Positions 12,714-44,007 of a DNA stretch of 64,000 bases are shown in pieces (within the stretch, counting starts at the first letter, position 1; every line of letters starts with the position of its first letter). The translations under genes were made by a program, and so were the position numbers. Location of the stretch: NCBI GenBank assembly GCA_013306675.1, contig JABLUY010000063.1, positions 62,001 through 126,000 on the forward strand. The letters are read 5' to 3'. The notes beneath the pieces are model-generated. The model ran no database searches. It was not told the origin of the DNA and saw only the letters and a program-made list of their open reading frames with translations. Origin of the DNA: Thraustochytrium sp. TN22 (lineage: Eukaryota > Sar > Bigyra > Thraustochytrida > Thraustochytriidae).

Positions 12714-15446
12714 ATGCGCACGATCTCGATGGCCTCCGTGGCCATCGCGGTGCTGGCGCTGGTCGCTCCCGTGCTGGGCGGGATGCGCCCCCGGCCGGGT
12801 GACATGATGTTGACGTGCGGGCCGATTGACATGGTGGTGATGTTGGACGGGTCCTGCTCCGTGGAAACCTTCGAAAGTGCCAAGTCGCTGGCCAAGGTGC
12901 TCGTTGGTCAGCTCGACATCGGCCGAAGCAAGGATCATGTGACGGCCTTCAACTTCGGTGACAAGGTCTATGACTCCAAGCCTCTCACCTCCATTAAGAA
13001 CCTGGACGCCTTCAAGGACTTCATCGACGACATGACGAATGGCGAGGAGTGGTCCACCAACCTCGCGTACGCTGCGTCCTTCGCCCAGAAATTGTTCGAC
13101 CGGAAAGGCCGCAGCGAGGCCAAGAAGCTGCTTCTGATTTTGTCAGACGGCTACATGAATGTCCCGATTCCGACGAGAAAGTACGTCTTCAAGGTGTGCC
13201 CGAACATCCCGCACAGGCTCTACGCCACCCCAGAGGCGCTACAGACCTGCTACGAGGACATCCTCATCGACATGGCCGTGGATGACGACATTGTCATTAT
13301 CTACATCCCGCTGGACGAGGACCACAGCGAGTTCCCGGAGTCCGCGGAGGTCTACCCCTACATCACGTCGCCGGTGGACATGAGCGAGATTGGCGCTGCC
13401 ACGTGCCCGGAGCCCACGTTGGCGCCTACCATGATGCCTGTCGCTGGTGACTGCTACCTGGAACGCACGCGCTTTAGCGGCCCAAAGTCCAAACTTGAGG
13501 ACCTGACCCTGGCGCAATGCGACTCAGCCTGCCAGATGGACGATTCTTGCGAGGGCTTCAGCTACCAGGCCGCGAGCCAGAAGTGCTTTCTCTACAGTGA
13601 CATCTCGGGAAGCTCTGTTAGGGCTGCCTTCGTGTCGGGCTACAAGGCAGACTGTGTCGCGACCGCGCCGCCTGCGGGAGGGGAAGGTGAGGAAGAGGTC
13701 CCCACCCCGGCGCCCACCGCGGATCCCACCGCAGAGCCTACTTCGTGCTTCAGCCCCGGCGTTAGGTTCGTCGACGATGACGTTCTCATGGAGTTCGCCT
13801 GCACGTCGACCTGCGAGTGCGCCATTGACTGCTACAACGAGCCGCTCTGCGAGTATTGGTCCTTCAACAGCAAGAAGAAGCAGTGCTTCCTCTTCGACCA
13901 TCCGCCTCAAGTGAACAGCAATGGCAAGTGGGCCAGCGGCACCACGACCTGTGTGCCAGACATCTGCATCATGACGGACGCGCCCACGGAGTACCCGACC
14001 GAATCTCCAACCGAGTATCCCACGGAGTACCCGACCATGATGCCTGTGCTTGGCGGTTGCTATTTGGAGGACTACAAGTACACCGGCGATCGAGTAACGG
14101 GGATCGGTCCGAACGGCGAGAACATTGCTACTCTGGACTCTGCTGAGGCCTGCCATTCTCTTTGCGCTCTCACCGACGGCTGCGAGTACTGGACCTATTT
14201 CGGAAAGGCCGATGCGTGCCTGCTCTTCAAGACCCCCGGCGACGGCGCTGAGACCGTCGCTAACAAGTTGGCCGTCTCCGGGCCCAAGACTGACTGCGTC
14301 CCCACGGATCCGCCGATCCCTAACGAGGGTGAGGAGAGCACTCCCGCGCCCACGGAGTACCCGACCGAGTTCCCTACTGAGTTCCCTACTGAGTTCCCGA
14401 CCGCCGCACCCACCTGTGCTGCTGATGGTCTCAAGTACAAGACTCAGGGCCCCAAGCTGATCTGGAATGACGACATCCCGGCCTGGACCTGCGACTCCAA
14501 GTGCGAGTGCGCTGCGCGCTGCGCTGACGAGCCTGCTTGTGTTGCGTGGACGTACCAACAGCAGACGTACAACGGCGACTGCTATCTCTTTCATACCGAA
14601 CCCGTCGAGAACCCGAGCACCTTCCCGGCGTTCTCGCGCGGCCTCACCGGATGCTTGCCGACCGACTGCCCTACGCTCCCGGAGGGTGAAGAAGGCACGG
14701 AGAGTCCGACCGAATACCCCACGGAGTACCCGACGACCGCGTCTCCCACGGAGTACCCGACCGAATACCCCACGACGGCGTCTCCCACGGAGTATCCCAC
14801 CGAATACCCCACGACCGCGTCTCCCACGGAGCACCCGACCACGTGCTATGACGAGGGCTGGAAGTACAAGGGATCGAACTCCGTTGTAGCTCCCGACGGC
14901 AAGCCGGCCTGGACGTGCGAGACGCAGTGCTCGTGCGTGGACATGTGCGAGGCGTACGAGGGCTGCGTGGGCTGGTCTTTCCAGCTCAAACAGTGGGGCG
15001 AGGGTAACTGCTACCTGTACGTCGAAACACCAGTGGAGAACAACAACAGTCCCTTCGACAACTGGTCTCGCGGCCCGGTTGGCTGCAGGCCAGACTCCTG
15101 CCCGATTCCAACTTCCGCGCCGACGGACACGCCCGCCGTCAACCCGGAGGACTCCGGCGAGGACGTTTGCGCCGCGGTCGGCAAGAAGTGGCAATACACA
15201 GACGACAACCTCTCCGGGTTCAAGCAGTTCGTGGACATCTCGTACGAGGCTTGCGTCCAGAAGTGCCACGACCACGACAAATGCGAGGTCTTCAACTACT
15301 ATTACTATCCCAACGGATCCTACGCGAGCAAGTGCTTCCTCTACAAGAACGGCCAATACGAGACCGACGGACCCGTCGATGGGCCTGCCGAAACCTGGCA
15401 GACCGTTGTCTGTGGCAGCGCCACCTGCCCGGTTGAGGCTCTTTAA
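12714..15446 (+). CDS. Secreted VWA/PAN mosaic protein A (one VWA, six PAN-like domains)
   Basis: This 910-residue protein begins with a signal peptide (about residues 1-22, hydrophobic SVAIAVLALVAPVL). One VWA domain follows at about residues 36-225. Its MIDAS is DGSCS (D45, S47, S49) and LSDG completes the metal site. Six cysteine-rich PAN/Apple-like modules come next, beginning near residues 237, 335, 439, 558, 701 and 809. Most have the pattern CxxxCxxxxxCxxW followed by C-Y/F-L-F/Y. They are joined by short Pro/Thr/Glu linkers such as PTEYPTE and PTTASPTEYPTE. There is no transmembrane or GPI tail, so the product is predicted to be secreted. VWA and PAN domains are established adhesion modules; a role in adhesion or extracellular matrix is inference. 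It is the first of six paralogues on the same strand, and the only one of the six in which the VWA is N-terminal without a second VWA. Confidence 0.9.
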   Translation: MRTISMASVAIAVLALVAPVLGGMRPRPGDMMLTCGPIDMVVMLDGSCSVETFESAKSLAKVLVGQLDIGRSKDHVTAFNFGDKVYDSKPLTSIKNLDAFKDFIDDMTNGEEWSTNLAYAASFAQKLFDRKGRSEAKKLLLILSDGYMNVPIPTRKYVFKVCPNIPHRLYATPEALQTCYEDILIDMAVDDDIVIIYIPLDEDHSEFPESAEVYPYITSPVDMSEIGAATCPEPTLAPTMMPVAGDCYLERTRFSGPKSKLEDLTLAQCDSACQMDDSCEGFSYQAASQKCFLYSDISGSSVRAAFVSGYKADCVATAPPAGGEGEEEVPTPAPTADPTAEPTSCFSPGVRFVDDDVLMEFACTSTCECAIDCYNEPLCEYWSFNSKKKQCFLFDHPPQVNSNGKWASGTTTCVPDICIMTDAPTEYPTESPTEYPTEYPTMMPVLGGCYLEDYKYTGDRVTGIGPNGENIATLDSAEACHSLCALTDGCEYWTYFGKADACLLFKTPGDGAETVANKLAVSGPKTDCVPTDPPIPNEGEESTPAPTEYPTEFPTEFPTEFPTAAPTCAADGLKYKTQGPKLIWNDDIPAWTCDSKCECAARCADEPACVAWTYQQQTYNGDCYLFHTEPVENPSTFPAFSRGLTGCLPTDCPTLPEGEEGTESPTEYPTEYPTTASPTEYPTEYPTTASPTEYPTEYPTTASPTEHPTTCYDEGWKYKGSNSVVAPDGKPAWTCETQCSCVDMCEAYEGCVGWSFQLKQWGEGNCYLYVETPVENNNSPFDNWSRGPVGCRPDSCPIPTSAPTDTPAVNPEDSGEDVCAAVGKKWQYTDDNLSGFKQFVDISYEACVQKCHDHDKCEVFNYYYYPNGSYASKCFLYKNGQYETDGPVDGPAETWQTVVCGSATCPVEAL

Positions 15447-19114: not shown

Positions 19115-22100
19115 ATGGCGCGTGGTGGCGTCCTGCTCGCCGTAGCGGCGGCCGCTGTGGCCGCCGTCTTCGTGCCGGTGAATGCCACGCTCGAGTGCGG
19201 CCCGATCGACATGGTCATGATGCTCGACGGGTCTGGGTCCGTGGAGACCTTCACGCAGGCCCAAGAGATCGCCAAGGCGTTCGCCGCGACCCTGGACATC
19301 GGCACTAACACGGACCATGTGACGGCCTTCAACTTTGGCGGCGACGTGGAGACGAGCAAGCCGCTAGGCAAGATCAAGACACAGGCCGCCTTTGAGTCCT
19401 ATATCGACACAATGAAGCACAACGAGGAGTGGTCGACCAACCTGATCTACGCCACCAACTGGGCCGATACGCTCTTTGAAAAGAACGGCCGCGCCGCGGC
19501 CAAGTGGGTCCTCGTCATTATCTCCGATGGCTACCTGAATGTGCCCATCCCGAGCAAGAAGTACGTGTACAACCTGTGCGCCGGGATCGCGGACTCCAAG
19601 GCGACCGCCACGCAGGAGAACATGCAGATGTGCCTTGACGGCCTCCTCGCGGAGCTCGCCGAGCAGGATGACAACCCGGTCACCATCGTGTACGTGCCGC
19701 TTGACAGCAGCCCGTACGAGTGGCCGTCCACCTCGGAAGCCTATCCGTACGTGGAGACGCCCTCCGACCTGACGAGCGCCGAGACGGCGGCGTCCAGCTC
19801 GGAGGAGCTCATCTGCCCGCCCACCGTGCCGACCGAGGAGCCTACTGTGGCGCCCTCTGCCGAACCGACGGCCGCGCCCACGCTGAGCCCGGTCACACTG
19901 CCGGACGACTGCATCGAGGAGAACATCCAGTACAAGGGCACCAAGATCAGCACCTCGAAGGTCTCCGGCGGCGCTGAGGAGTGCATGTCGCTCTGCCAGT
20001 CGACCACTGGCTGCGTCGGGTGGACCTTTCACGGCAAGAGCGACCAGTGCTACCTGTACTCCAAGGTGACACAGGCCAAGACGAAGAGCTCGAGCGCCGA
20101 GTGGGTCTCTGGCCCGGTTGTCTGCACGTCCGCGCCCACGGCCGAGCCTACGGTCGCGGTCACCGATGCGCCGACCGACGCGCCGGTCACAGTGTCCATG
20201 GACTGCATTGAGGAGGACGTCCAATACAAGGGTGACAAGATCTCTACCACGACCGTCGACGATGTGGAGGCTTGCATGGCGCTCTGCCAGGCAACTCCCG
20301 CCTGCGTGGGCTGGACTTTTCATGGCAAGAGCGCGAACAAGTGCTTCCTGTACGCTGAGGTGACGCAGGCCAAGACCAAGAACGCGAATGCCGAGTGGGT
20401 GTCCGGCCCGGCCTCGTGCACAGCGTCGCCCACGCCCTCGCCAATCAACCAGGAGGGCGGCGAACCCACATCCTCGCCGACGGAGTTGCCCACGGCGTAC
20501 CCGACGGCAGACCCCACGGCGTACCCGACGGCAGACCCCACGGTATACCCTACGGACGCACCAACGACCTGCTACGACGAAGGCTACAAGTACAAGATTA
20601 CTGCCAGCAAGCTCATCAAGAACGGCAACCTCAACGCCTGGACCTGCAGCGGTGCCTGCGAGTGTGCAACGCGCTGCTCCGAGCTCGAGGAGTGTGTCGC
20701 CTGGACCTTCAACAAGCAGACCTACAACGGAGACTGCTACCTCTTCAAGTCTGAGCCTGTCGAGCAAAACACGCCGTACGCCAAGTGGACCCGTGGCCCA
20801 TCCGGCTGCGTGCCTGAGGAGTGCACGCCGTCGCCCACGATTGCGCCCACCTCGATCACTCCTCCGGAGGGTGGCGAAGACACGGAGTCGCCCACCGAGT
20901 ACCCGACGGAATACCCCACGGAGTACCCGACCGAGTACCCGACGGAATTCCCCACCGAGTACCCCACGGAATTCCCCACGGAGTACCCGACCAAGTACCC
21001 CACGAACCACCCCACCGAATACCCGACTGCCTACCCGACTGCCGACCCGACCGCTTACCCGACTGACATGCCCACCGAGTACCCAACCAACTACCCCACC
21101 GCCGCCCCAACCTGCTTTGTCGATGGCTACAAGTACAAGATTACCGAGAGCAAGCTCATCAAGAACGGCAACATTAACGCTTGGACCTGCGATGACGAGT
21201 GCGAGTGTGCTCAGCGCTGCATCGACACGGCTGGCTGCATTGCCTGGACCTTTAACATGCAGACCTACAACGGTGACTGCTTCCTTTTCAAGTCCGAGCC
21301 GGTTGAAAACGACACGCCGTTCACCAAGTGGTCTCGCGGTCTCGTCGGCTGCCAGCCGGACACCTGCACGCCTGCGCCCACGGTCTCGCCCACCTCGATA
21401 ACTCCTCCGGAGGGCGGCGAAGACACGGAGTCGCCCACTGAGTACCCGACGGAATACCCCACGGAGTACCCGACGGAATACCCCACGGAGTACCCGACCG
21501 ACTTCCCCACGGAGTACCCGACCGAGTTCCCCACGGAGTACCCGACGGAATACCCCACGGAGTACCCGACGGAGTTCCCCACGGAGTACCCGACCGAGTT
21601 CCCCACGGAGTACCCGACCGAATTCCCCACGGAGTACCCGACGGAATACCCCACGGAGTACCCGACCGAGTTCCCCACGGAGTACCCGACCGAGTTCCCC
21701 ACGGAGTACCCGACCGAGTTCCCCACGGAGTACCCGACGGAATACCCCACGGAGTACCCGACCGAGTTCCCCACGGAGTACCCGACCGAGTTCCCCACGG
21801 AGTACCCGACCGAGTTCCCCACGGAGTACCCGACGGAATACCCCACGGAGTACCCGACCGAGTTCCCCACGGAGTACCCGACCGAGTTCCCCACGGAGTA
21901 CCCGACCGAGTTCCCCACGGAGTACCCGACGGAATACCCCACGGAGTACCCGACGGAGTTCCCCACGGAGTACCCGACCGAGTTCCCCACGGAGTACCCG
22001 ACCGAGTTCCCCACGGAGTACCCGACGGAATACCCCACGGAGTTCCCGACCGAGTTCCCCACGGAGTACCCGACCGAATACCCCACGGAGTACCCGACCG

Positions 22101-23184
22101 AGTTCCCCACGGAGTACCCGACGGAATACCCCACGGAGTACCCGACGGAATACCCCACGGAATACCCCACGGAGTACCCGACGGAATACCCCACGGAGTA
22201 CCCGACGGAATACCCGACGGAGTTCCCCACGGAGTACCCGACCGAGTTCCCCACGGAGTACCCGACCANNNGCAGTACCCGACGGAGTTCCCCACGGAGT
22301 ACCCGACCGAGTTCCCCACGGAGTACCCGACCAAATACCCCACTGAGTACCCGACGGAGTTCCCCACGGAGTACCCGACCAAATACCCCACGGATGCTCC
22401 GATTTCGCAGTGCACCGAGCGCCAGCTGGACATCATGTGGGTGATTGACAACAGTGGCTCGATTGGTGCGTCCAGCATCCAGACCCTTCAGAATGTGCTG
22501 CCGGACTTTCTCGACGCATACACGCTGACTCCGGACATGACTCGGTTTGCCGGTCTCAGCTATAATGGGAAGATCCTCGGAACCAAGGGCACGATTAGTG
22601 CAACCAAGCCACTCGGCAATGGTCCCGACACCTCGGCCATCGCGCCGTTCTACTTCACGTCTGACGCAGATCAGGCGGTGAACGAGCAGAAGTGGGAGTC
22701 CTTCGCTGCGGCGCAGAGCAGCCCCTCGGGGAAATACACAAACACGCCGCAGGCCCTGCAGGGCGCGGAGTACATGATGTCGCAGGCTTTTGCAGCTGGC
22801 GGTCCTCGCGACATCAGCACAGGCGTCATCCGTGTGGTGGTTCTGATTACGGATGGCAATCCGAACAAAAAGGACGGCACGTATTGCCCGAGCGTTTCAG
22901 GCAGCGCAGATGAGTACATCGTGTGCTCCGAGTACTGGGCGCGGGAGCTCATCAACACGGACCAGGCCTATCTGGTGGTGGTCAAGGTCGGCGCCAGCGA
23001 ATTTAAGGAGGCCTTTATGACAACGTGCATCGCAGAGGGTTCCGGAAAGCCGTCCGAGCAGCCGGACTCCGTCCAGTTCGTCGAGGCAGACTCGTACGAG
23101 ACTCTCCAATCCACTTTCTCGCAGATCGTCGAGGCCACATGCACGGATTACCAGACGCCGTATCCGGTCACCTACAGTTGCTAA
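19115..23184 (+). CDS. Secreted VWA/PAN mosaic protein B with long E-Y/F-P-T array and C-terminal VWA (contains assembly gap)
   Basis: The ATG at 19115 opens a signal peptide (residues 1-24, LLAVAAAAVAAVFV). An N-terminal VWA follows with MIDAS DGSGS. Four PAN-like domains begin at about 19910, 20204, 20569 and 21114. The last two are close copies (CYDEGYKYKITASKLIKNG against CFVDGYKYKITESKLIKNG). From about 21427 to 22404 the protein is a tetrapeptide array E-Y/F-P-T with a 96-base higher-order period. Three N bases at 22268-22270 mark an assembly gap inside the array, and the frame before the gap differs from the frame after it. I join them as one gene because array and linker continue on both sides. 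The C-terminal module is a second VWA (MIDAS DNSGS, then NTPQALQ and LITDG) ending CTDYQTPYPVTYSC. No membrane anchor is seen. Confidence 0.85.
21427..22404 (+). repeat. Coding minisatellite, 12-base unit with 96-base higher-order repeat (gene B)
   Basis: The basic unit encodes E-Y-P-T or E-F-P-T. The order YYYFYFYF recurs, so landmark GACGGAATACCCC falls at 21544, 21640, 21736, 21832, 21928 and 22024, exactly 96 bases apart. About 70 units precede the N gap and about 10 follow it. Confidence 0.95.
22268..22270. other. Assembly gap (NNN) inside coding array
   Basis: Three N bases stand within the E-Y/F-P-T array. The true number of missing bases is unknown, so both array length and reading frame are unresolved here. 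Confidence 0.99.
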
Positions 23185-25931: not shown

Positions 25932-28900
25932 ATGGCGCGGCTCGCTGCGATGATGGCGGCGGCGGCCGTGGGCCTGCTGGCAGCCTTGGCGCTGCCCGCG
26001 GCCACGGAGGCGGCCACGTGCGGCCCGCTCGACGTGGTCATGCTCCTTGACGCGTCCGGCTCCGTGGAGAACTTCGAGGAAGCGCAGGAGATCGCCAAGG
26101 AGCTGGCGGCCGAGTTCAACATCGGCAGGAACGACGACCACGTCTCCGCCTTCAGCTTTGGCGGCAAGGACTACAACTGGAGGTCGCTCAAGGCGGACAA
26201 GAACCTCGGCCAGGTCAAGACCCAGATCGACAAGCTCAGCGCTATCGAGGAGGAGTCCACCAACCTTGCATGGGCCATGGCCAAGGCCGAGTTTACCTTC
26301 ACCAAGACTGGCCGCAACAATGCCAAGAAGGTCGTCATCCTCTTCTCGGACGGCCACCAGAACATCCCGTACTTTAGCCAGTATGTCAAGAAGGCGTGTG
26401 GCCTCAAGGCCAGGGATGCTACCAAGGAGGCGATGCAGGCCTGCTACGAGGGGATCGTGGCCGACCTCGTCGCGGACGACGTCCTGATCGTCTACGTGCC
26501 GCTCGGCGACAGCCCGTACGTGCCTGTGAGTGGTGACCCGCTCTACCCGCTCTTCTCCGTGCAGAGCGACCTCAGCAGCACGAGCGCGGCCACTGCCGGC
26601 ATCCTCGAGTACATCTGTCCGGCCTCCGAGTGCCCGGACGAGTCGCGCAACATCATCTTCGTCGTGGACGCCTCGCACACCATCGACGAGACCGAGCGCG
26701 CCCAGGCGCACGACTTCGTCACGGACTTCGCCTCGCGCTTCACCATCGACGGCCCGGACGCCACCCGCTTCGGCTACCTCGAGTACTCCAACACGGTCGG
26801 CGATGTGCTTGGTGTGCTCAAGGGCAATGGCCAGCCGTTCTTTAACACCTACGGCAAGCTCGTCAATGCCGTCGAGTCCTACCCGCTTGGCGAGAACCAA
26901 AACACCAACACGCCGCTCGCGCTCTTGGCCGTGCTGGACCTCATCGCTGCCACGGACGCCAAGGACGTCGACAAGGGGCGCGACCCGCGCCACACCATCG
27001 TGATTCACATCGGCGACAACAACCCGTACGTGGACGACCCCAGCCTGAACCGCGCCGTCCTGCCGACCGAGTGTGGGTCCATGAACGCCAAGGAGTGCAC
27101 CATCGCCTTCGCGCAGGACATTCAGGACCTCGACGCCGAGTACATCTCCATCTACATCGGCAACAAGAAGTCTGAGCGCAAGCTCTACAGCGACGTCGAG
27201 CCCGAAGTCCCTGTGTACGAGGTCTCGGACTACGCCGGTCTCATGAACCTCGTCAACGACCTCGTCACGGATCACTGCGACAACCCGACCAGCCCGCCGA
27301 CGCTCGCGCCCGTCGTCGCTCCCGACACGTGCTACGAGGAAGACAGCATGTACCAGGGCAAGAAGATCGGCGAGCCGCGCTGGGTTGACGTCGAGAGCGC
27401 CGCCCAGTGCCACTCCGTGTGCGCCTCGACGACGGGCTGCGTCGCCTGGACCTTCAAGGGCTCCAAGGGCCGCTGCTACATGTTCACTGAGGTCACGGGC
27501 AGCAAGAGCAAGGGCTCCAAGGGCGGGTGGGTCTCCGGGCCTGTTGACTGCGTTGTGCCGCCCGAAGGCTCCGAAGACACGCCGTCGCCCACGGCGTACC
27601 CGACAACCGCGGACCCGACGGCGTACCCGACAACCGCAGACCCGACGGCATACCCGACGGAATCTCCCACGGAGTACCCGACGGCGTACCCGACAACCGC
27701 GGACCCGACGGCCTACCCGACGCAATCGCCCGTGACGGAGCTTGACGGCTGCTATGAGGACAACATCCTGTACTCGAGCTCCTCCAGGATTGGCCCCATT
27801 CTCACCAACGTGCCAAGCGCCGCGACTTGCCACTCCATTTGCACCACCACCGCTGGCTGCAACTTCTGGTCCTACAAGGGCAAGGACAGCAAGTGCTGGC
27901 TCTTTGAGACCATCGATGGCTCTAGCTCCAAGCCGTCGGGTCAACAGTGGGAGTCTGGCCCGGCCATCTGCACGCCCTACCCGACTGCAGAGCCGACCCT
28001 GGAGCCCACTGAATTCCCGACGGCGTACCCGACGGCATACCCCACGGAATATCCCACGGAGTACCCGACCGCCGCACCCACCTGTGCTGCTGATGGTCTC
28101 AAGTACAAGACTCAGGGCTCCAAGCTGATCTGGAATGACGACATTCCGGCCTGGACGTGCGACTCCAAGTGCGAGTGCGCTGCGCGCTGCGCTGACGAGC
28201 CTGCTTGCGTTGCGTGGACGTACCAACAGCAGACGTACAACGGCGACTGCTATCTCTTTCACACCGAGCCCGTCGAGCACCCGGACACCTTCTCGAAGTT
28301 CTCGCGCGGCCTGAGCGGGTGCACGCCGACCGATTGCCCTACGCTCCCGGAGGGCGAAGAAGGCACGGAGAGTCCGACGGAATACCCCACGGAGTACCCG
28401 ACGACGGCGTCTCCCACGGAGTACCCGACGGAATACCCCACGGAGTACCCGACCGAGTTCCCCACGGAGTACCCGACCGAGTTCCCCACGGAGTACCCGA
28501 CCGAGTTCCCCACGGAGTACCCGACCGAGTTCCCCACGGAGTACCCGACCGAGTTCCCCACGGAGTACCCGACGGAATACCCCACGGAATACCCGACGGA
28601 GTACCCGACCGAGTTCCCCACGGAGTACCCGACCGAGTTCCCCACGGAGTACCCGACCGAGTTCCCCACGGAGTACCCGACCGAGTTCCCCACGGAGTAC
28701 CCGACCGAGTTCCCCACGGAGTACCCGACGGAATACCCCACGGAATACCCCACGGAGTACCCGACCGAGTTCCCCACGGAGTACCCGACCGAGTTCCCCA
28801 CGGAGTACCCGACCGAGTTCCCCACGGAGTACCCGACCGAGTTCCCCACGGAGTACCCGACCGAGTTCCCCACGGAGTACCCGACGGAATACCCCACGGA

Positions 28901-29884
28901 GTACCCGACGGAGTACCCGACCGAGTTCCCCACGGAGTACCCGACCGAGTTCCCCACGGAGTACCCGACCGAGTGTACCCGACCGAGTTCCCCACGGAGT
29001 ACCCGACCGAGTTTCCCACGGAGTACCCGACGGAATTCCCCACGGAGTACCCCACACTCTACCCGACCGACATGCCCATCATCCAGTGCAAGGACCGTGA
29101 CCTGGACATCCTGTGGGTGATCGACAACAGCGGCTCGATCGGGGGACCTGCCATCAATCAGCTGAAGGTTGCGCTGCCGAACCTCCTCACCGCATACACG
29201 CTGTTGCCAGATCAGACGCGCTTTGCCGGGCTGAGCTATAATGAGGGTATCCTGGGCGTTTCAGGCGTGTCCAAAACCAACCCGCTTGGCACGAGTATTG
29301 CTAGTACGCCCATCGCGCCGTTCTACTTCACGTCTGATGCAAACCAGGCGGTGAATGAGGCGCGGTGGAATGACTTCGCCGACGCGCAGAGCAGCCCCTC
29401 AGGGAAATACACAAACACGCCGCAGGCACTGCAAGGCGCAGAGTACATGATGTCGCAGCCTACATCGAGTGGCGGCCCTCGCTCTCTTGCCACCGATGTC
29501 ATCCGCGTTGTGGTGCTCATCACTGACGGCAATCCGAACAAGCACGACGGCGCGGACTGCACAATGGTTACAGGCAGCGGCGACGCCATGAGGATCAAGT
29601 GCTCCGAGTACTGGATGAAGGAGTTGATCAACGAGCAGGACGCCTACATGGTTGTGGTTCAGGTCGGCGCGGACGCGTTCAAGTCCGCGTTCGGGAAGAC
29701 ATGCATCGAAGAGGACGCCGCCAAGCCTGCTGACCAGCCGGACTCCATTCAGTTCATTGAGGCCACATCATACGAGCACATCCAGGCCGTCTTCTCCGAT
29801 ATCGTCGCGGCTACCTGCACGGACTATCAGGAGCCCTACCCGGTCAACTTCAAACCTACTTGCCTCACGTCACCACCAAGCTAA
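25932..29884 (+). CDS. Secreted VWA/PAN mosaic protein C (two N-terminal VWA, three PAN, array, C-terminal VWA; frame break in array)
   Basis: The protein begins with an Ala-rich signal peptide (residues 1-27). VWA1 has MIDAS DASGS. A second VWA-like domain at about residues 236-445 starts FVVDASHTIDE, where the MIDAS second serine is replaced (D-A-S-H-T). PAN-like domains start near residues 466, 605 and 717. The E-Y/F-P-T array spans about 28376-29058. At about 28974 the array is out of register by a 10-base deletion relative to its repeat unit. As sequenced, the first frame would end at about 29120 after some 48 out-of-frame residues. The following frame resumes the array and encodes a C-terminal VWA (MIDAS DNSGS) ending in CTDYQEPYP. 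I annotate one gene with a frameshift of uncertain reality (assembly collapse or true variant). Up to the array it is nearly identical to gene D. Confidence 0.8.
28376..29058 (+). repeat. Coding minisatellite, 12-base unit with 156-base higher-order repeat (gene C)
   Basis: The E-Y/F-P-T units are organised as YYYYFYFYFYFYF, 13 units or 156 bases. The landmark GACGGAATAC falls at 28571, 28727 and 28883, exactly 156 bases apart. The period differs from the 96 bases in gene B, so the arrays were homogenised separately. Confidence 0.95.
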
Positions 29885-32012: not shown

Positions 32013-32052
32013 CCGGAGACCGCGCTTTTCACTCTCCCATCTGAGAGGGAGC

Positions 32053-35000
32053 ATGACGCGGCTCGCTGCGATGATGGCGGCGGCGGCCGTGGGCCTGCTG
32101 GCAGCCTTGGCGCTGCCCGCGGCCACGGAGGCGGCCACGTGCGGCCCGCTCGATGTGGTCATGCTCCTTGACGCGTCCGGCTCCGTGGAGAACTTCGAGG
32201 AAGCGCAGGAGATCGCCAAGGAGCTAGCGGCCGAGTTCAACATCGGCAAGAACGACGACCGCGTCTCGGCCTTCAGCTTCGGCGGCAAGGACTACAACTG
32301 GAAGTCGCTCAAGGCGGCCAAGAACCTCGGCCAGGTCAAGACCCAGATCGACAAGCTCAGCGCTATCGAGGAGGAGTCCACCAACCTTGCATGGGCCATG
32401 GCCAAGGCCGAGTTTACCTTTACCAAGACTGGCCGCAACAATGCCAAGAAGGTCGTCATCCTCTTCTCGGACGGCCACCAGAACATCCCGTACTTTAGCC
32501 AGTATGTCAAGAAGCCGTGTGGCCTCAATGCCAAGGATGCCACGGACGAGGCGATGCAGGCCTGCTACGAGGGGATCGTGGCCGACCTCGTCGCGGACGA
32601 CGTCCTGATCGTCTACGTGCCGCTCGGCGACAGCCCGTCCGTGCCCGTGAGTGGTGACCCGCTCTACCCGCTCTTTTCCGTGCAGAGCGACCTCAGCAGC
32701 ACGAGCGTGGCCACTGCTGGCATCCTCGAGTACATCTGTCCGGCCTCCGAGTGCGCGGACGAGTCGCGCAACATCATCTTCGTCGTGGACGCCTCGCACA
32801 CCATCGACGAGACCGAGCGCGCCCAGGCGCACGACTTCGTCACGGACTTCGCCTCGCGCTTCACCATCGACGGCCCGGACGCCACCCGCTTCGGCTACCT
32901 CGAGTACTCCAACACGGTCGGCGATGTGCTTGGTGTGCTCAAGGGCAATGGCCAGCCGTTTTTTAACACCTACGGCAAGCTCGTCAATGCCGTCGAGTCC
33001 TACCCGCTTGGCGAGAACCAAAACACCAACACCCCGCTCGCGCTCTTGGCCGTGCTGGACCTCATCGCTGCCACGGACGCCAAGGACGTCGACAAGGGGC
33101 GCGACCCGCGCCATACCATCGTGATTCACATCGGCGACAACAGCCCGTACGTGGACGACCCCAGCCTGAACCGCGCCGTCCTGCCGACCGAGTGCGGGTC
33201 CATGAACGCCAAGGAGTGCACCATCGCCTTCGCGCAGGACATTCAGGACCTCGACGCTGAGTACATCTCCATCTACATCGGCAACAAGAAGTCTGAGCGC
33301 AAGCTTTACAGCGACGTTGAGCCCGAAGTCCCTGTGTACGAGGTCTCGGACTACGCCGGTCTCATGAACCTCGTCAACGACCTCGTCACGGATCACTGCG
33401 ACAACCCGACCAGCCCGCCGACGCTCGCGCCCGTCGTCGCTCCCGACACGTGCTACGAGGAAGACAGCATGTACCAGGGCAAGAAGATCGGCGAGCCGCG
33501 CTGGGTTGACGTCGAGAGCGCCGCCCAGTGCCACTCCGTGTGCGCCTCGACGACGGGCTGCGTCGCCTGGACCTTCAAGGGCTCCAAGGGCCGCTGCTAC
33601 ATGTTCACTGAGGTCACGGGCAGCAAGAGCAAGGGCTCCAAGGGCGGGTGGGTCTCCGGGCCTGTTGACTGCGTTGTGCCGCCCGAAGGCTCCGAAGACA
33701 CGCCGTCGCCCACGGCGTACCCGACAACCGCGGACCCGACGGCATACCCGACGGAGTATCCCACGGAGTACCCGACCGAGTATCCCACGGAGTACCCGAC
33801 CGAGTACCCGACGGAATTCCCCACGGAGTACCCGACCGAGTACCCGACGGAATTCCCCACGGAGTACCCGACCGAGTACCCGACCGCTGACCCGACGGCC
33901 TACCCGACGCAATCGCCCGTGACGGAGCTTGACGGCTGCTATGAGGACAACATCCTGTACTCGAGCTCCTCCAGGATTGGCCCCATTCTCACCAACGTGC
34001 CAAGCGCCGCGACTTGCCACTCCATTTGCACCACCACCGCTGGCTGCAACTTCTGGTCCTACAAGGGCAAGGACAGCAAGTGCTGGCTCTTTGAGACCAT
34101 CGATGGCTCTAGCTCCAAGCCGTCGGGTCAACAGTGGGAGTCTGGCCCGGCCATCTGCACGCCCTACCCGACTGCAGAGCCGACCCTGGAGCCCACTGAA
34201 TTCCCGACGGCGTACCCAACGGAATATCCGACGGAATATCCCACGGAGTACCCGACCGAGTATCCCACGGAGTACCCGACCGAGTACCCGACCGCCGCAC
34301 CCACCTGTGCGGCTGATGGTCTCAAGTACAAGACTCAGGGCCCCAAGCTGATCTGGAATGACGAAATCCCGGCCTGGACGTGCGACTCCAAGTGCGAGTG
34401 CGCCGCGCGCTGCGCTGACATGCCTGCTTGCGTTGCGTGGACGTACCAACAGCAGACGTACAACGGCGACTGCTATCTCTTTCACACCGAGCCCGTCGAG
34501 CACCCGGACACCTTCTCGAAGTTCTCGCGCGGCCTGAGCGGGTGCACGCCGACCGATTGCCCTGCGCTCCCCGAGGGTGGTGAAGACACGGAGAGTCCGA
34601 CGGAATACCCCACGGAGTACCCGACCGAATACCCCACGGAGTACCCGACCGAGTTCCCGACCGAGTTCCCCACGGAGTACCCGACGGAATACCCCACGGA
34701 GTACCCGACGGAGTTCCCCACGGAGTACCCGACCGAGTTCCCCACGGAGTACCCGACCGAATTCCCCACGGAGTACCCGACGGAATACCCCACGGAGTTC
34801 CCGACCGAGTTCCCCACGGAGTACCCGACCGAGTTCCCCACGGAGTACCCGACCGAGTTCCCCACGGAGTACCCGACGGAATACCCCACGGAGTACCCGA
34901 CGGAGTACCCCACGGAGTACCCCACGGAGTACCCGACGGAATACCCCACGGAGTACCCGACGGAATACCCCACGGAGTACCCGACCGAGTTCCCCACGGA

Positions 35001-35583
35001 GTACCCGACCGAGTTCCCCACGGAGTACCCGACGGAATACCCCACGGAGTACCCGACGGAATACCCCACGGAGTACCCGACCGAGTTCCCCACGGAGTAC
35101 CCGACCGAGTTCCCCACGGAGTACCCGACCGAGTTCCCCACGGAGTACCCGACGGAATACCCCACGGAGTACCCGACCGAGTTCCCCACGGAGTACCCGA
35201 CCGAGTTCCCCACGGAGTACCCGACGGAATACCCCACGGAGTACCCGACCGAGTTCCCCACGGAGTACCCGACCGAGTTCCCCACGGAGTACCCGACCGA
35301 GTTCCCCACGGAGTTTCCCACGGCGTATCCGACCACCGAGCCTTATCCCGACTGCTGGATTGGTGCCAAGTCCGTGGGTCCAAATGGTGGTAAGCTGGAG
35401 AATGTTGCCACACCGTTTGACTGTGAGGCCCTCTGCGACGACGCCGGTACCGCGAATTGTGTGCAGTGGAACTGGCATGCAGGGAATCTCGACTGCCATT
35501 TCCTCAAAAGCGTGAACCCGCAGAACCCCCTCCTTTACGACAAGGAACCGTGGGTCACCGGGCCCGCCGGTGGTTGTCCCTGA
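32053..35583 (+). CDS. Secreted VWA/PAN mosaic protein D (two VWA, four PAN, two arrays; C-terminal PAN instead of VWA)
   Basis: This uninterrupted 1176-residue protein has signal peptide (1-27), VWA1 (DASGS) and a VWA2-like domain (D-A-S-H-T). PAN-like domains start near residues 466, 628 and 750. A short E-Y/F-P-T array (about 33742-33890) separates PAN1 and PAN2. A long one (about 34595-35337) follows PAN3. Over the first roughly 460 residues I count 13 amino-acid differences from gene C, and PAN1 and PAN2 are identical to C. After the long array D departs: it ends in a fourth PAN-like domain (CWIGAKSVGPNGGKLENV, then CVQWNWHAGNLDCHFL and EPWVTGPAGGC). That domain resembles the modules of gene E rather than the C-terminal VWA of C. 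Secreted; no anchor. Confidence 0.92.
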   Translation: MTRLAAMMAAAAVGLLAALALPAATEAATCGPLDVVMLLDASGSVENFEEAQEIAKELAAEFNIGKNDDRVSAFSFGGKDYNWKSLKAAKNLGQVKTQIDKLSAIEEESTNLAWAMAKAEFTFTKTGRNNAKKVVILFSDGHQNIPYFSQYVKKPCGLNAKDATDEAMQACYEGIVADLVADDVLIVYVPLGDSPSVPVSGDPLYPLFSVQSDLSSTSVATAGILEYICPASECADESRNIIFVVDASHTIDETERAQAHDFVTDFASRFTIDGPDATRFGYLEYSNTVGDVLGVLKGNGQPFFNTYGKLVNAVESYPLGENQNTNTPLALLAVLDLIAATDAKDVDKGRDPRHTIVIHIGDNSPYVDDPSLNRAVLPTECGSMNAKECTIAFAQDIQDLDAEYISIYIGNKKSERKLYSDVEPEVPVYEVSDYAGLMNLVNDLVTDHCDNPTSPPTLAPVVAPDTCYEEDSMYQGKKIGEPRWVDVESAAQCHSVCASTTGCVAWTFKGSKGRCYMFTEVTGSKSKGSKGGWVSGPVDCVVPPEGSEDTPSPTAYPTTADPTAYPTEYPTEYPTEYPTEYPTEYPTEFPTEYPTEYPTEFPTEYPTEYPTADPTAYPTQSPVTELDGCYEDNILYSSSSRIGPILTNVPSAATCHSICTTTAGCNFWSYKGKDSKCWLFETIDGSSSKPSGQQWESGPAICTPYPTAEPTLEPTEFPTAYPTEYPTEYPTEYPTEYPTEYPTEYPTAAPTCAADGLKYKTQGPKLIWNDEIPAWTCDSKCECAARCADMPACVAWTYQQQTYNGDCYLFHTEPVEHPDTFSKFSRGLSGCTPTDCPALPEGGEDTESPTEYPTEYPTEYPTEYPTEFPTEFPTEYPTEYPTEYPTEFPTEYPTEFPTEYPTEFPTEYPTEYPTEFPTEFPTEYPTEFPTEYPTEFPTEYPTEYPTEYPTEYPTEYPTEYPTEYPTEYPTEYPTEYPTEFPTEYPTEFPTEYPTEYPTEYPTEYPTEYPTEFPTEYPTEFPTEYPTEFPTEYPTEYPTEYPTEFPTEYPTEFPTEYPTEYPTEYPTEFPTEYPTEFPTEYPTEFPTEFPTAYPTTEPYPDCWIGAKSVGPNGGKLENVATPFDCEALCDDAGTANCVQWNWHAGNLDCHFLKSVNPQNPLLYDKEPWVTGPAGGCP
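34595..35337 (+). repeat. Coding minisatellite E-Y/F-P-T (gene D, long array)
   Basis: About 62 twelve-base units encode EYPT or EFPT, in a less regular order than in B and C, with a run of consecutive EYPT units near 34870-34975. A second short array lies at about 33742-33890 in the same gene. Confidence 0.9.
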
Positions 35584-37582: not shown

Positions 37583-40252
37583 ATGCGGCCGACGACGCTT
37601 GGATACGCGCTCGTCGCGAGCGTCCTCGCTGGGCTCGTGGCTGCGGGCCACGGAACAGCCACGCAGGACTCGGGAGGTGCCGGGACGGAATGCTACTACG
37701 AGAAGTCCAAGACAGTCGGCAAGAAGGTCAGCGGCAAGCCCAACGTTTACGAGGTCGACGACCCGGCCGCCTGCCAGGCGACCTGCACCGGGGTCGACGA
37801 CTGTGTCGCCTGGAATTTTCACATCAACACGCACAAGTGCTATCTCTTCCGCGAAGTGAAAAAGGTGCTCAGCAACAAGCAACCCTGGATTTCCGGCCCC
37901 GTCTACTGCACAGCAAGCCCCACGTCCATGCCGACGGAGGACTCGTCGCCCCAAGGCGGCGAGCCCACCGAGTGCTTCCACGAGGACGCCAAGACGGTCG
38001 GCAAGAAAGTCAGCGGCAAGCCCAACTATTACGTGGTCGACGACGCGGCTGCCTGTCAGGCGACCTGCGCCAGCGTCGATGAGTGCGTTGCATGGAATCT
38101 GCACTTCAACACGCACAAGTGCTACCTCTTCCGCGAGGTCAAGAAGGTGCTCAACAACAAGCAGCCCTGGATTACCGGTCCGGTCGCCTGCACGGCGAGT
38201 CCCACGCCTGCGCCGACGGATGCTGACAGCGAGCCAACCGAGGCTCCCACGGAGTCCACAGATCCCGAGGGCGGCGAGCCCACCGAGTCGCCCACCGACA
38301 GCTGGGACTGGCCGGAGTGCTACGAGAACGACTCCAAGACCGTGGGTCAGCACGTGGACGGCCAGGACATCTACGATGTTGCCGATCCGGCCGAGTGTCA
38401 GGCGACCTGCGCCGGCGTCGCGGACTGCGTCGCCTGGAATATCCACCGGGAGACCCTCAAGTGCTACCTCTTCAAGAGCGTCCAGCAGGTGCTCAGCAAC
38501 AAGGTGCCCTGGACCACCGGCCTTGTCGCTTGCACAGAAAGTCCCACACCTGCGCCGACGGAAGCTGACAGCGAGCCAACCGAGTCTCCCACGGAGTCCA
38601 CAGATCCCGAGGGCGGCGAGCCCACCGAGTCGCCCACCGACAGCTGGGACTGGCCGGAGTGCTACGAGAACGACTCCAAGACCGTGGGTCAGCACGTGGA
38701 CGGCCAGGACATCTACGATGTTGCCGATCCGGCCGAGTGTCAGGCGACCTGCGCCGGCGTCGCGGACTGCGTCGCCTGGAATATCCACCGGGAGACCCTC
38801 AAGTGCTACCTCTTCAAGAGCGTCCAGCAGGTGCTCAGCAACAAGGTGCCCTGGACCACCGGCCTTGTCTCGTGCACGGCAGCACCCACGTCTGAGCCGA
38901 CCACGTCCACGACATCCGAGGGCGGCGAGCCCACCGAGTCGCCCACCGAGAGCCGGACGGTGACGGACTGCTACGACGAGGATTCCAAGACCGTGGGTCA
39001 GCACGTGAACGGCCAGGCCATCTACGACGTCGCCGACCCGGCCGCCTGCCAGGCGACCTGCGCCGGCGTCGCAGATTGTGTCGCCTGGAACATCCACAGG
39101 ACAACCCTCAAGTGCTACCTCTTCAAGAGCGTCCAGCAGGTGCTCAGTAACAAGGTGCCTTGGACCACCGGGCCGGCCATTTGCCCGGCAACCCCGACCT
39201 ACTCGCCCACGGCCGGCTTAACGCCCGAAGGCGGACCGGAATCGGAGGCTCCCACCGCGAGCCCGACTGCGGAGCCAACGGCAGAGCCTACCGCGGAGCC
39301 TACCCTGGAGCCTACCGTGGAGCCCACCGCAGAGCCCACTGCGGAGCCTACTGCGGAGCCTACGCTCTTGCCCACCTCAGAGCCAACTGCAGAGCCCACC
39401 TTGGCGCCTACGCAGCAAATCACGCCCGAGGGTGGCCCGGAGGAGACGCCAGCCCCCACGGACGCGCCCATTGACCCCTGCCTTGATCGGCAGCTCGACA
39501 TTCTGTGGGTGCTGGACAACAGCAACTCCATCGGCGACAACGAAATCGCCCAGCTCAGCGAGGATCTCAAGATGCTTTTGGACGCGTACGAGCTCGGCGA
39601 AGATGCGACGCGCTTCGCCGGCCTCAGGTACAACGGTAAGATCATGGACCTCGTGAACCAAGGCAAGCTGAGCGCCGACAAGCCTCTCGCCGATGGGCCC
39701 AGCTCGGAACCTGGCGCGCCCTTCTTCTTTACCACGGATGGGCAGGTGTGGGAGGACTTCGCGGACGCCATGACTTCCACCGGCTACACCAACACTCCGC
39801 AAGCGCTGCAGGGCGCCTCGTACATGCTCTCGCAAGACTTCAGTCAGGGCGGGCCCCGCCTCCTCGCGACGGACGCGATCCGCGTCGTCGTACTCCTCAC
39901 CGACGGTCAGCCCAACAGAAAGGAAGATACGGATTGCTCAGCCGTGTACGGAGACGACCCCTTCCCGTCCGGCGAGAGGGTGCAGAAGTGCACGGAGAAG
40001 TGGGCACGCAACATCATCAATGACAACAAGGCGTACTTTGTCACCGTCAAGATCGGCAACAATTTCAACTCGGACTTCCTCGCCATGTGCCTTGCGGAGG
40101 GCGATGGCAAGCCCGCCGACCAGCCGAACTCCGTCCAGTTTGTGCAGAGCGACTCGTACAGCGCTCTCAAGAGCACCTTGGCCGAGATCGTTGCCGCCAC
40201 CTGTACCGACTACGGTACGCCCTTTCCCACGAAGTGGACCTGCGACAGGTAA
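37583..40252 (+). CDS. Secreted VWA/PAN mosaic protein E (five PAN, C-terminal VWA)
   Basis: The 889-residue frame starts with signal peptide MRPTTLGYALVASVLAGLVA. Five PAN-like modules begin near residues 37, 131, 246, 360 and 463. They follow the pattern CYEx(3)SKTVG, CQATC, CVAWN and CYLFxxVxxVLxNKxPW. Linkers carry STDPEGGEPTESPT. Modules 3 and 4 are a 342-base tandem duplication. A Pro/Thr/Ala/Glu linker (PTAEPT type, about 39199-39478) leads to a C-terminal VWA. Its MIDAS is DNSNS, followed by NTPQALQ and LLTDG, and it ends CTDYGTPFPTKWTC. It has no N-terminal VWA and no E-Y/F-P-T array. The gene is intronless. Its PAN subtype matches the last module of gene D. Confidence 0.92.
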   Translation: MRPTTLGYALVASVLAGLVAAGHGTATQDSGGAGTECYYEKSKTVGKKVSGKPNVYEVDDPAACQATCTGVDDCVAWNFHINTHKCYLFREVKKVLSNKQPWISGPVYCTASPTSMPTEDSSPQGGEPTECFHEDAKTVGKKVSGKPNYYVVDDAAACQATCASVDECVAWNLHFNTHKCYLFREVKKVLNNKQPWITGPVACTASPTPAPTDADSEPTEAPTESTDPEGGEPTESPTDSWDWPECYENDSKTVGQHVDGQDIYDVADPAECQATCAGVADCVAWNIHRETLKCYLFKSVQQVLSNKVPWTTGLVACTESPTPAPTEADSEPTESPTESTDPEGGEPTESPTDSWDWPECYENDSKTVGQHVDGQDIYDVADPAECQATCAGVADCVAWNIHRETLKCYLFKSVQQVLSNKVPWTTGLVSCTAAPTSEPTTSTTSEGGEPTESPTESRTVTDCYDEDSKTVGQHVNGQAIYDVADPAACQATCAGVADCVAWNIHRTTLKCYLFKSVQQVLSNKVPWTTGPAICPATPTYSPTAGLTPEGGPESEAPTASPTAEPTAEPTAEPTLEPTVEPTAEPTAEPTAEPTLLPTSEPTAEPTLAPTQQITPEGGPEETPAPTDAPIDPCLDRQLDILWVLDNSNSIGDNEIAQLSEDLKMLLDAYELGEDATRFAGLRYNGKIMDLVNQGKLSADKPLADGPSSEPGAPFFFTTDGQVWEDFADAMTSTGYTNTPQALQGASYMLSQDFSQGGPRLLATDAIRVVVLLTDGQPNRKEDTDCSAVYGDDPFPSGERVQKCTEKWARNIINDNKAYFVTVKIGNNFNSDFLAMCLAEGDGKPADQPNSVQFVQSDSYSALKSTLAEIVAATCTDYGTPFPTKWTCDR
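38224..38907 (+). repeat. 342-base coding tandem duplication in gene E
   Basis: The block containing one linker plus one PAN module is repeated 342 bases later. From 38244 to 38527 (284 bases) I see no difference from the copy at 38586-38869, including synonymous sites, so the duplication or a conversion event is recent. Confidence 0.9.
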
Positions 40253-41212: not shown

Positions 41213-44007
41213 ATGGGTCCGAGCAAGATGCTGGCTGTGGCGGCTGCAGCGGTGGCGGCCGCCGCGATGGTGACGCTGGGGAGCGCGGCGGAGCGCGAGT
41301 GCGGCGCGCACGATGTGGTGATGCTGCTGGACGCCTCGACGACGGCGGCCGAGTTCCAGGAGGTGCAGCGCATCGCGAAGCTGCTGGCCGAGGACTTCCG
41401 CATCGGCCAGGAGGCGGACGAGGACCGCGTCACCGCAGCGAGCTTTGGCGATGACATCAAGGTCTTTAAGAACCTGTGGCGTGTTGCAAACAGCGATGCT
41501 TTTGAAAACCTGGTGGATTCCATGTCCAACAATAAGAACTGGGGGAGCAACCTGCCGTACGCCATCGCCTCTGGCATGCAGATGCTGGCGGCGAGGCCGC
41601 GTTCGTATGCCAAAAAGGTTCTCATCGTCATCTCGGACGGGCACAACGACGTCACGAACCCCACGGATGACCTCGTTTTCAGCGTCTGCTGCAACATGGA
41701 GGGCCCGGGCGACTTCTCGGAGGAAGCGCTCTGCGAGTGCACGGCGCAAGCCATCAAGAACGTGGTGCGCGAAGAGGATGTCATCTTCATCCACGTGCCC
41801 GTAGGCAGCGACGTGCTGTCGCTTGACTCCCTGGGCAGCGAGTCGGCGCTGGCCGAGTTCGTGGAGGTGGCCGAGACGCCCGATGGCGGTGGTACGATCG
41901 CTGATGACGTCCTCGAGACGCTCTGCCCGGCGGACCCCGTCATGTGCCAGCTGACGCCGCGCGACATCATCTTCGTCGTCGACAGCTCGCACACCATCAG
42001 TGACGAGGAGCGCGCTGCGCAGCAGGCCTTTGTCATCGAGTTCGCCTCGCGCTGGACCGTTTACGAGGACGAGTTCGCACGCTTCGCCTACCTGGAGTAC
42101 TCGACCTCCGCTGGCACCGCGCACTACCTGGCCAACACCGACGGCACCTCCACCTTTGCTACGCAAGAGGACTTCGCGGCGGCTGTCTCTGGCTACGAGA
42201 GCCTGATCAGCGGCAATACAAACACGCCCGAGGCGCTGCTCCGTGTCATCGAGATCATTGAAGACACCCAGGAGCGCGACGACGACAGCCGCCGCGACGC
42301 ACGTGGCACGCTCGTTGTGCACATCGGCGACGACCACCCGTACGTGGATTGGTCGGTCGGCCGCGTTCCTTCCGAGTGCGGCGACTACTACGACAACGCC
42401 GCCTTCTACCCGGAGGCGGCCCTTCGATGCACCAACAAGTTCGTTCAGACCATCCATGACATGGGCGCGACCCTCATTTCGGTCCAGGTTGATGACGAGG
42501 CGCTCGATGAGATCTACGATGCCGTCCTGCCCGCTGTACGCGTCTATCCGTGTGCGGACCGCGCAGACCTCGGGGACCTCGTTGACGAGATCATCAGCGA
42601 GCAGTGTGACTGGAGCACGCCAAAGCCCACCCTGAGCCCCGTCGAGGTGCTCTCGGACTGCTACACTGACGGCATTCTCTACGATGGCGAGCGCATTGGC
42701 GAGCCTGACTACTACGAGAACATTGACGAGGCGGTCGAGTGCCACTCCATGTGCGCGTCGAACACGGCCTGTGAGTTCTGGACGCACCAAGACAGCGAGA
42801 GCAAGTGCGTTCTCTTTAGGTCCATCTCTGGCATTGCGGACAGCGAAGCGGACTATACGTCCGGCCCCAAGATTTGCACTCACGCGCCTACGCAGTTGCC
42901 GACTGCCCTTCCCACGGCCTTCCCGACGGAGCTGCCCACGGCCTTCCCGACGGAGCTGCCCACGGCCTTCCCGACGGAGCTGCCCACGGCTTTCCCGACG
43001 GATCTGCCCACGGCGTTTCCGACGGAGTTGCCCACGGCGTTCCCGACGGAGCTGCCCACTGCGTTCCCGACGGAGCTGCCCACGGCATTTCCGACGGAGC
43101 TGCCCACGGCATTTCCGACGGCCGCCCCTACGACGCCCAAGCCTACTTACGCGCTTTCCTTCACCTGCCCGGCGCGCAAGCTGGACATTCTCTTTGTCAT
43201 TGACAACAGCGGTTCAATCGGCGGTACCGGAGCCACCCAACTTAACGCAGCGCTCCCCAAATTCGCGGATGCGTTCACGATGGGGGCCGACGACACTCGG
43301 TTTGCAGGTCTGCGTTACGACTCCACCGTGCTCAACGTGGGTGGTACCGTATCTTCGTCGGCGCCTCTGGGAACGGGTCCCGATGAGTAAGTTTGAAGCC
43401 TCGACACACAGAGAGCAACGATACGTAAAGGAGGCGCGGAACCGAGACTAACAGATCACCAACCACTTCTAACCTACGCAGCACCGCAGAGGGTCGGCCC
43501 TTCTACTTCAATGAACCGCAGTCAACGGATGAAGGCACGGCGTGGGACGACTTCGCAACCACTCAGAGAGCGGGCGGTTCAACCAACACGCCACAAGCGA
43601 TGCAGGCCGCTCGATACATTCTCAATGCCCCCTACCCTCAGGGGCCGCGAGACAAGGATGATGACACCATCCGAATCGTTCTGCTCTTCACGGACGGCAA
43701 TCCGAACACGTCGGGTGGGACTGCATGCTCTACCAACAACTACTACACGTGCTCTGAGGAACACACTTACGCCTTGGTGAATGATAACAAGGCCTACGTC
43801 ATCGTTGTTGAGATCGGCACCAACATCGCCACAAACTTTCTGACAGGCTGCATGTCCGAGAACAGCAGGCCGGTCGATCAGCCTGCATCCATTTCCTTCG
43901 TGCAAACTTCCTTTGCGCAAATTCAAGAGGCGGTCAACGACATCGTCGAGGCTTCGTGCATCGATGAGACCTACATGGAGCCGGCTGGTCTCACCTGGAC
44001 GTGCTGA
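41213..44007 (+). CDS. Secreted VWA/PAN mosaic protein F (three VWA, one PAN, P-T-E-L-P-T-A-F array; one intron)
   Basis: Exons 41213-43386 and 43482-44007 join to 899 residues. The 95-base intron opens GTAAGT, carries TTCTAAC and ends in CGCAG; it is in phase 2 within the last VWA. The signal peptide is Ala-rich (residues 1-25). VWA1 has D-A-S-T-T at the MIDAS (D40). VWA2 has D-S-S-H-T (near residue 257). One PAN-like domain starts at about residue 483. About nine repeats of PTELPTAF (24-base unit, 42886-43135) follow. The C-terminal VWA has DNSGS, NTPQAMQ and LFTDG and ends CIDETYMEPAGLTWTC. The layout matches gene C (VWA-VWA-PAN-array-VWA) with fewer PAN domains and a different array. I chose this start because the signal peptide follows it directly. 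Confidence 0.92.

Follow-up and report, generated by a model that had tools for sequence, protein, structure and literature searches.

Secreted VWA proteins have been described in several algae. The red alga Asparagopsis taxiformis has an expanded secreted family of about 43 VWA proteins whose cysteines are spatially conserved and whose model resembles PTMP1, and its authors propose that these proteins serve flexibility or attachment (PMC12115072; this and the following reports are cited for the parts available to us). Secreted VWA expansions in red algae are also reported in PMC8307928, and coralline algae possess 10 VWA genes whose products are presumed to be extracellular (PMC6717203). In chromerid algae, VWA-TSP1 proteins without TRAP orthology were found (PMC4501334). 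PTMP1, a protein of the mussel byssus, contains a pair of VWA-like domains and binds collagens (PMC4754843). The Apple domains of the protein MIC4 bind galactose-containing glycans, and the thrombospondin repeats (TSR) of the TRAP-family protein MIC2 bind M2AP (PMC4055764). In the oomycete protein CBEL, PAN/Apple domains are linked by a Pro/Thr-rich hinge (PMC3532174), and one candidate component of the ectoplasmic net of Aurantiochytrium resembles MIC4 and is probably secreted (PMC12221091). Here, a cluster of six genes (A to F) combining VWA and PAN domains is considered in Thraustochytrium sp. TN22. The window, that is, the whole stretch of DNA analysed, comprises 64,000 nucleotides (contig JABLUY010000063.1 of assembly GCA_013306675.1, positions 62,001 to 126,000), and all coordinates below are counted from its first letter.

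The six genes lie on the forward strand between 12714 and 44007. To judge from their folds, their products are rather likely to be multivalent proteins, secreted in soluble form, that act in adhesion or in the extracellular matrix; both the profiles and a predicted structure lead to matrix VWAs and Apple domains. A preliminary description, made from the letters alone, had proposed six paralogues on this strand, which is confirmed by the open reading frames (ORFs), a codon-usage scan and Pfam.

Domains and architecture of the six genes

VWA (PF00092) and PAN_1 (PF00024), the domain models with which the preliminary description suggested checking the cluster, are above the Pfam gathering cut-offs in all six genes, B, C and F each being scanned as two pieces. 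VWA scores lie between 33.6 bits (E) and 109.5 (F), with a cut-off of 23.8, and PAN_1 scores between 24.4 bits (F) and 91 (A), with a cut-off of 21.4. Alignment and listing gave 12 VWA and 23 PAN/Apple modules in total, and the domain orders proposed at the outset for each of the six genes proved correct. By sequence, the VWAs fall into three groups, designated N (five domains), M (three) and C (four).

Gene A (12714..15446) begins with a signal-like N-terminus, followed by an N-type VWA (12813..13430; DGSCS, STN, SDG) and six PAN domains with short PTEY/PTEF linkers. Gene B (19115..23184) consists of an N-type VWA (19190..19816; DGSGS), four PAN, a long Pro-Thr-Glu-aromatic array, PTE[YF] (21434..22392), and a C-type VWA (22393..23181; DNSGS, TNTP, TDG). 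In gene C (25932..29884), an N-type (26013..26633; DASGS) and an M-type VWA (26634..27263; DASHT) precede three PAN, a PTE[YF] array (28374..29068) and a C-type VWA (29069..29881; DNSGS). Gene D (32053..35583) likewise has N-type (32134..32754; DASGS) and M-type VWAs (32755..33384; DASHT), three PAN and a PTE[YF] array (34597..35334), and ends in one E-like PAN. Gene E (37583..40252) is devoid of an N-terminal VWA; five tandem PAN are joined by a linker of PTAE/PTLE type without an aromatic residue (39251..39412) to a C-type VWA (39470..40249; DNSNS). Gene F (41213..44007) carries N-type (41297..41905; DASTT) and M-type VWAs (41906..42628; DSSHT), one PAN, a tyrosine-free array of PTEL/PTAF type (42887..43147) and a C-type VWA in two exons (43148..44004; DNSGS). 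All these features are on the forward strand.

Long open frames account for almost the whole of each gene, and A, D and E are each a single open frame. Three details of the other genes were missed by the preliminary description. The intron of F (43387..43481, forward strand, 95 bp) is of GT-AG type (GTAAGT...CTACGCAG); its donor is GTAAGT, its acceptor CAG, and its branch site resembles CTAAC. It sits within the C-terminal VWA; the last-exon piece scores 19.2 with the VWA model, below the cut-off, yet it aligns with the other C-type VWAs, and the spliced protein aligns with those of B, C and E. In the array of B the frame shifts at an NNN gap (22269-22271), and in the array of C it is broken by 2 extra bases near 28973-28976, so that each gene was read as two pieces. 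Both were taken, without proof, as assembly faults in a repeat. Since they fall inside the arrays, the array lengths of B and C are unreliable.

The codon-usage scan, for which genes A, B, C and E served as the training set, gives the main frames of the six genes scores of 304-805; among the 75 best-scoring ORFs, none located wholly between the six genes scores above 17, and no further gene was detected there. The G+C content (GC) is 64.8% in the window and 61-64% in the genes, computed without the last exon of F and the main array in each of B, C and D. By comparison, six labyrinthulomycete genomes have a GC of 43-47%; four species of Bangiales red algae, at 64-68% overall (PMC7423979), agree with the value of the window, but the coding GC of Pyropia yezoensis, 71%, does not agree with that of the six genes. 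At third codon positions, the GC fraction of the six genes (0.81-0.88) falls within that of eight measured neighbour ORFs (0.76-0.91), and because of this resemblance the genes look at home in the host genome.

The metal site (MIDAS) of VWA domains has the motif DxSxS...T...D. All 12 VWAs (two alignments, of eight and four domains) retain its D, S and last D, and 8 of the 12 show the form DxSxS; the three M-type domains carry DxSHT. An alignment of 19 of the 23 PAN modules revealed seven invariant columns, six of them Cys. Each of the 23 modules has 6, 7 or 9 Cys, there being six-Cys and nine-Cys forms and seven in PAN6 of A. As for other families, matches to MANEC and DUF1194 remained below the Pfam cut-off, and no C-type lectin, thrombospondin repeat or CBM1 was listed at E 0.01 in the scan of the gene pieces. 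Gene E also matches PF13889 (24.2 bits, cut-off 22.9); the match coincides with a PAN repeat and was regarded as spurious.

The proteins are probably soluble and exported. In a 19-residue hydropathy window, a peak of 1.69-2.41 is found near the N-terminus of all six. No later window, counting from the 36th, exceeds 1.62, a value reached at residue 174 in both C and D, within a strand of a VWA; the usual cut-off for a membrane segment is 1.6. The C-terminal ends peak at 0.64 or less, and no membrane tail or tail of glycosylphosphatidylinositol (GPI) type was seen by this hydropathy window in any of the proteins. The signal peptides and the missing membrane or GPI tails noted earlier agree with the hydropathy of all six.

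Most of the closest solved relatives, by profile and predicted fold, belong to the matrix, adhesion or plasma proteins. For the profile of the N- and M-type VWAs, 60 of 135 matches were listed, among them collagen VI alpha-3 (E 7.2e-43, over 7 stretches), PTMP1 (7.3e-15), integrin alpha-1 (7.4e-10) and MIC2 (6e-6), as well as integrin alpha-2, VWF and TRAP. Collagen VI alpha-3 (1.9e-9, no single stretch passing alone) and PTMP1 (4.5e-6) also come first with the C-type profile, which matches MIC2 at 3e-4. The PAN profile matches plasma kallikrein (4.6e-15), TgMIC4 (7.4e-14) and factor XI (9.2e-14). A structure predicted for the N- and M-type VWA pair of C with the first PAN has a mean predicted local distance difference test score (pLDDT) of 63.3, and 34 of the first 42 ten-residue blocks reach at least 62. 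With this model, Foldseek placed PTMP1 at ranks 1-5 of the 50 matches listed, the best with E 8.7e-18 over 456 columns.

Searches of contig collections yielded few relatives. The alignment of C-type VWAs gave 56 pattern matches in a viral contig collection, none confirmed, and 579 in a genome contig collection, of which five were confirmed; these are weak and bacterial, with 25-40% identity over parts of the domain, one from Deltaproteobacteria and three of Bdellovibrio type. In the viral contigs, none of 11 matches to the N-type VWA of D and none of four to its PAN3 was confirmed. A DNA pattern of four PTE[YF] units matched two viral contigs and was set aside: the ORFs of at least 100 amino acids listed in the stretches inspected (three in one contig, four in the other) contain no PTE[YF], and the ORF over the match has TQQS repeats in another frame.

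Pro-Thr arrays and a proposed exchange of modules

The Pro-Thr linkers noted at first are present: genes B, C and D have acidic arrays of Pro-Thr-Glu followed by an aromatic residue, and the linkers of A, E and F are of other Pro-Thr kinds. The disordered PT repeat family (PF04886, cut-off 26.2) is above the cut-off in B, C, D and F and below it in A (16.2) and in the second piece of C (25.9); it was not listed for E. Genes A, B, C and D together contain 234 counted PTE[YF] units, 183 of which are encoded by only three 12-base words, CCCACGGAGTAC, CCGACCGAGTTC and CCGACGGAATAC, where about 60 would be expected under independent codon choice, as computed from the codon counts. The same three words serve the arrays of B, C and D. 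The mean difference between units is 1.74, 1.77 and 1.88 within B, C and D, respectively, and 1.74, 1.79 and 1.81 between these genes.

In the array of B, 69 units taken without a peptide filter show 69 synonymous and 23 other changes from the consensus, with 22% synonymous expected at random. The corresponding counts are 62 and 21 in D, and 49 and 38 in C, where they are blurred by a five-residue unit near the array start that shifts the register. The F array has 33 synonymous and 32 other changes, with 31% synonymous expected. Such changes are not independent, the units having been copied from one another. Nearly all non-synonymous changes affect the Tyr/Phe position (22 of 23 in B, 20 of 21 in D). 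Tyrosine chemistry, through 3,4-dihydroxyphenylalanine (DOPA) or dityrosine, was rejected as a general function of the arrays in view of this Tyr/Phe interchange and of the E linker and F array, where PTEY is missing.

Single modules are related in ways that differ from the genes around them. PAN4 of A (14412..14669, forward strand) has 93% DNA identity to PAN3 of C (28080-28337), with a synonymous divergence (dS) of 0.16, as against 0.84 for the N-type VWAs of the same two genes. The C-type VWAs of B and C, which adjoin arrays, also have a dS of 0.84, although the array units of different genes resemble one another about as closely as those of a single gene. In D, the sole partner at 45% identity or more of the C-terminal PAN4 (35350..35580, forward strand) is PAN5 of E (46%), and no C-type VWA was matched after it at E 10. 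Over 552 codons the sequences of C and D agree at 98.1%, with a non-synonymous divergence (dN) of 0.011 and dS of 0.046, and their PAN2 modules are the same over 75 codons. This homology begins about 4 bases before the ATG and is lost upstream within about 5 bases (25928-25932 in C, 32049-32053 in D). Between the 1-kb flanks of C and D, no match surpasses E 0.01 upstream or 0.12 downstream, and by this measure other pairs of flanks are alike.

This pattern suggests that domains were shuffled between genes by exchange at the arrays; misassembly may account for part of the signal. The domain orders of the paralogues would differ because the arrays act as homologous stretches for module exchange or conversion, a process supported by the DNA though not directly observed. 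Such exchange would explain the internal swaps, not the sharp C/D edge at the start codon. A further, tentative suggestion, somewhat short of probable, is that the cluster constitutes a self-diversifying adhesive kit, whose PTE[YF] arrays would be both spacers in the protein and recombination sites in the gene, with heads swapped, lost and gained between paralogues. It arises from the missing C-type VWA and the E-like PAN after the array in D, from the C-like PAN in A, and from the likeness of the coding parts of C and D under unrelated upstream DNA. The exchange signal could also be partly an artefact, mis-joined reads having produced the near-identical C/D tracts and the common array words, which would be compatible with any functional reading. 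The position of the NNN gap and of the frame break in the arrays would agree with this, as would the identity of the two PAN2 modules. Such an origin is nevertheless unlikely, if worth bearing in mind: gene A carries two of the three words in its short unbroken linkers (6 of 13 units), and over the 552 codons 1.9% of bases distinguish C from D, whose flanks are unrelated.

Proposed function and rival explanations

Through a divalent cation held at the MIDAS, the VWA domains would attach to protein or matrix ligands, and glycans or proteins would be the ligands of the PAN domains. The arrays may serve as extended, probably O-glycosylated spacers that keep the binding heads apart, so that a coat, mucilage or glue could be held together by single molecules that each bridge several partners. 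The binding activities of MIC4 and PTMP1 are parallels at the level of families and not tests of function for the six genes.

Several observations weigh against a common adhesive design of this kind. The third MIDAS Ser is replaced by Thr in 4 of the 12 VWAs, and the N-type VWA of F has an altered site, with DASTT and a Ser instead of the middle Thr. The PAN part of the C model has a pLDDT below 50, and the model of a C-type VWA, with a mean of 34.6, is unusable. Superposition of the C model on PTMP1 gives a TMq of 0.32, a root-mean-square deviation (rmsd) of 15.6 and 16% identity; since the TM-score over the pair is low, the match is to be read domain by domain. The E linker and the F array have no PTEY unit, and the array sequence is unreliable at the assembly breaks. 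Finally, no k-mer in the 500 bp upstream of each gene is common to all six beyond chance, and no 8-mer occurs in five or six of them. A modest partial excess was found for 7-mers in five genes (7 vs 3.87 in shuffles) and, in four genes, for 8-mers (6 vs 1.68) and 9-mers (1 vs 0.06). Beyond this excess in four or five of the six genes, co-regulation through a common promoter motif is not supported by the comparison.

Three other roles may be considered for the same domains. The products could be secreted recognition proteins whose VWA and PAN domains bind microbial or prey glycans in innate defence or feeding, with shuffling to diversify recognition. Module exchange and the near-identity of C and D would suit this, whereas no C-type lectin domain was listed at E 0.01, and dN is below dS between C and D, as in every other differing pair computed. 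The whole-domain counts therefore show no positive selection, and a recognition role seems improbable. Attachment proteins of a parasite or epibiont, comparable to the micronemal adhesins of apicomplexans (MIC2 for VWA, MIC4 for Apple), are suggested by the presence of both proteins among the solved profile relatives and by the MIC4-like ectoplasmic-net candidate of a thraustochytrid (PMC12221091, in the part available). This is very doubtful: no thrombospondin repeat was listed at E 0.01, a transmembrane segment and cytoplasmic tail were not seen, and the E-values of collagen VI and PTMP1 are better than that of MIC2. Cell-cell recognition, as by gamete or colony agglutinins instead of matrix proteins, would also fit the turnover of paralogues and the display of modular binding domains outside the cell on spacer stalks, but with a membrane anchor seen in none of the six proteins there is little to recommend it. 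A soluble adhesive or matrix role thus stays the preferred reading.

The neighbourhood of the cluster includes a further PAN protein, encoded at 56376-57788 (forward strand), in which an FkbM-type methyltransferase (PF05050, 59 bits) is joined to a C-terminal PAN (PF14295, 34 bits); a hydrophobic N-terminal stretch is visible by eye. Two cysteine-rich proteins (47227-48102 and 54954-56303, forward strand) are made of repeated GSCY...CAVDE...CCHCCGGCNH units and have, by eye, a signal-like start and a hydrophobic GPI-like C-terminal tail, with no Pfam family above its cut-off. Tandem flavin monooxygenase-like genes (50184-51932 and 52702-54390, forward strand) share 77% protein identity over 525 codons (dS 0.58). 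Directly downstream of the cluster, on the opposite strand, lies a major facilitator superfamily (MFS) transporter gene (44097-46106). Other neighbours in the window are TCTP, replication factor C and a NIF-type phosphatase, which, like the intron of F, mark the DNA as eukaryotic.

Comparison with known systems

TRAP/MIC2 adhesins combine a VWA and a thrombospondin repeat with a membrane span and a cytoplasmic tail. In the six genes, no TSR was listed at E 0.01, and no membrane-type segment after the signal and no membrane tail were seen, which sets them apart from MIC2 with its TSR. In Toxoplasma, VWA (MIC2) and tandem Apple domains (MIC4) belong to separate proteins, whereas the profiles of the cluster match both. 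Collagen VI alpha-3, the best sequence-profile match, has multiple matrix VWAs; the likeness is at domain level only, and the cluster genes have no collagen helix.

The best structural match, PTMP1, is a matrix protein with two VWAs bearing a MIDAS (PDB 4cnb, 4cn9), and it shares their tandem arrangement with the VWA pairs of the cluster. It differs from them in sequence, at 16% identity, and in the overall packing in the model (rmsd 15.6). To our knowledge, PTMP1 has no PAN domain or PT array.

CBEL is secreted, with two PAN/Apple domains, a Pro/Thr-rich hinge, a role in adhesion and the cell wall and Gal/GalNAc (galactose/N-acetylgalactosamine) lectin activity (PMC3532174). It has its own CBM1 cellulose-binding modules, and VWA is not mentioned in the available part of that report. 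The joining of CBM1 to PAN/Apple typical of the CBEL family was not found in the six genes, CBM1 being absent at E 0.01 from every piece.

The Asparagopsis VWAs resemble the six genes, whose products are probably secreted too, as an expanded family; PAN domains, PTE arrays and a tandem cluster are not mentioned in the part of that report available, and the two were compared by description only (PMC12115072). Rhodophyte VWAs are defined by a signal peptide and at least one VWA with spaced cysteines; corresponding features, with a signal-like start by hydropathy, are seen in the six genes, again as compared by description. A limited literature search, which does not prove absence, found no report of VWA, PAN and Pro-Thr-Glu-aromatic arrays together in a tandem cluster.

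The adhesive or matrix role proposed in the preliminary description stands as the best inference from the profiles and the predicted fold. Its term "undescribed system" was too strong, because secreted VWA families of red and coralline algae and the Pro/Thr hinge of CBEL have been reported. Secreted algal VWA families have been reported without a known ligand, and the cluster offers a compact set of paralogues with different combinations of heads, in which the role of each head is testable. Repeat arrays as exchange points would be a concrete, checkable route to mosaic adhesion proteins outside animals, and if the products do form an underwater glue or coat, they would be candidate biomaterials. 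The cluster combines themes known from red algal VWAs, oomycete PAN adhesins, and MIC4-like and VWA-TSP1 proteins; what is new here is the evidence for arrays that are common to B, C and D and appear to mark the borders of swapped modules.

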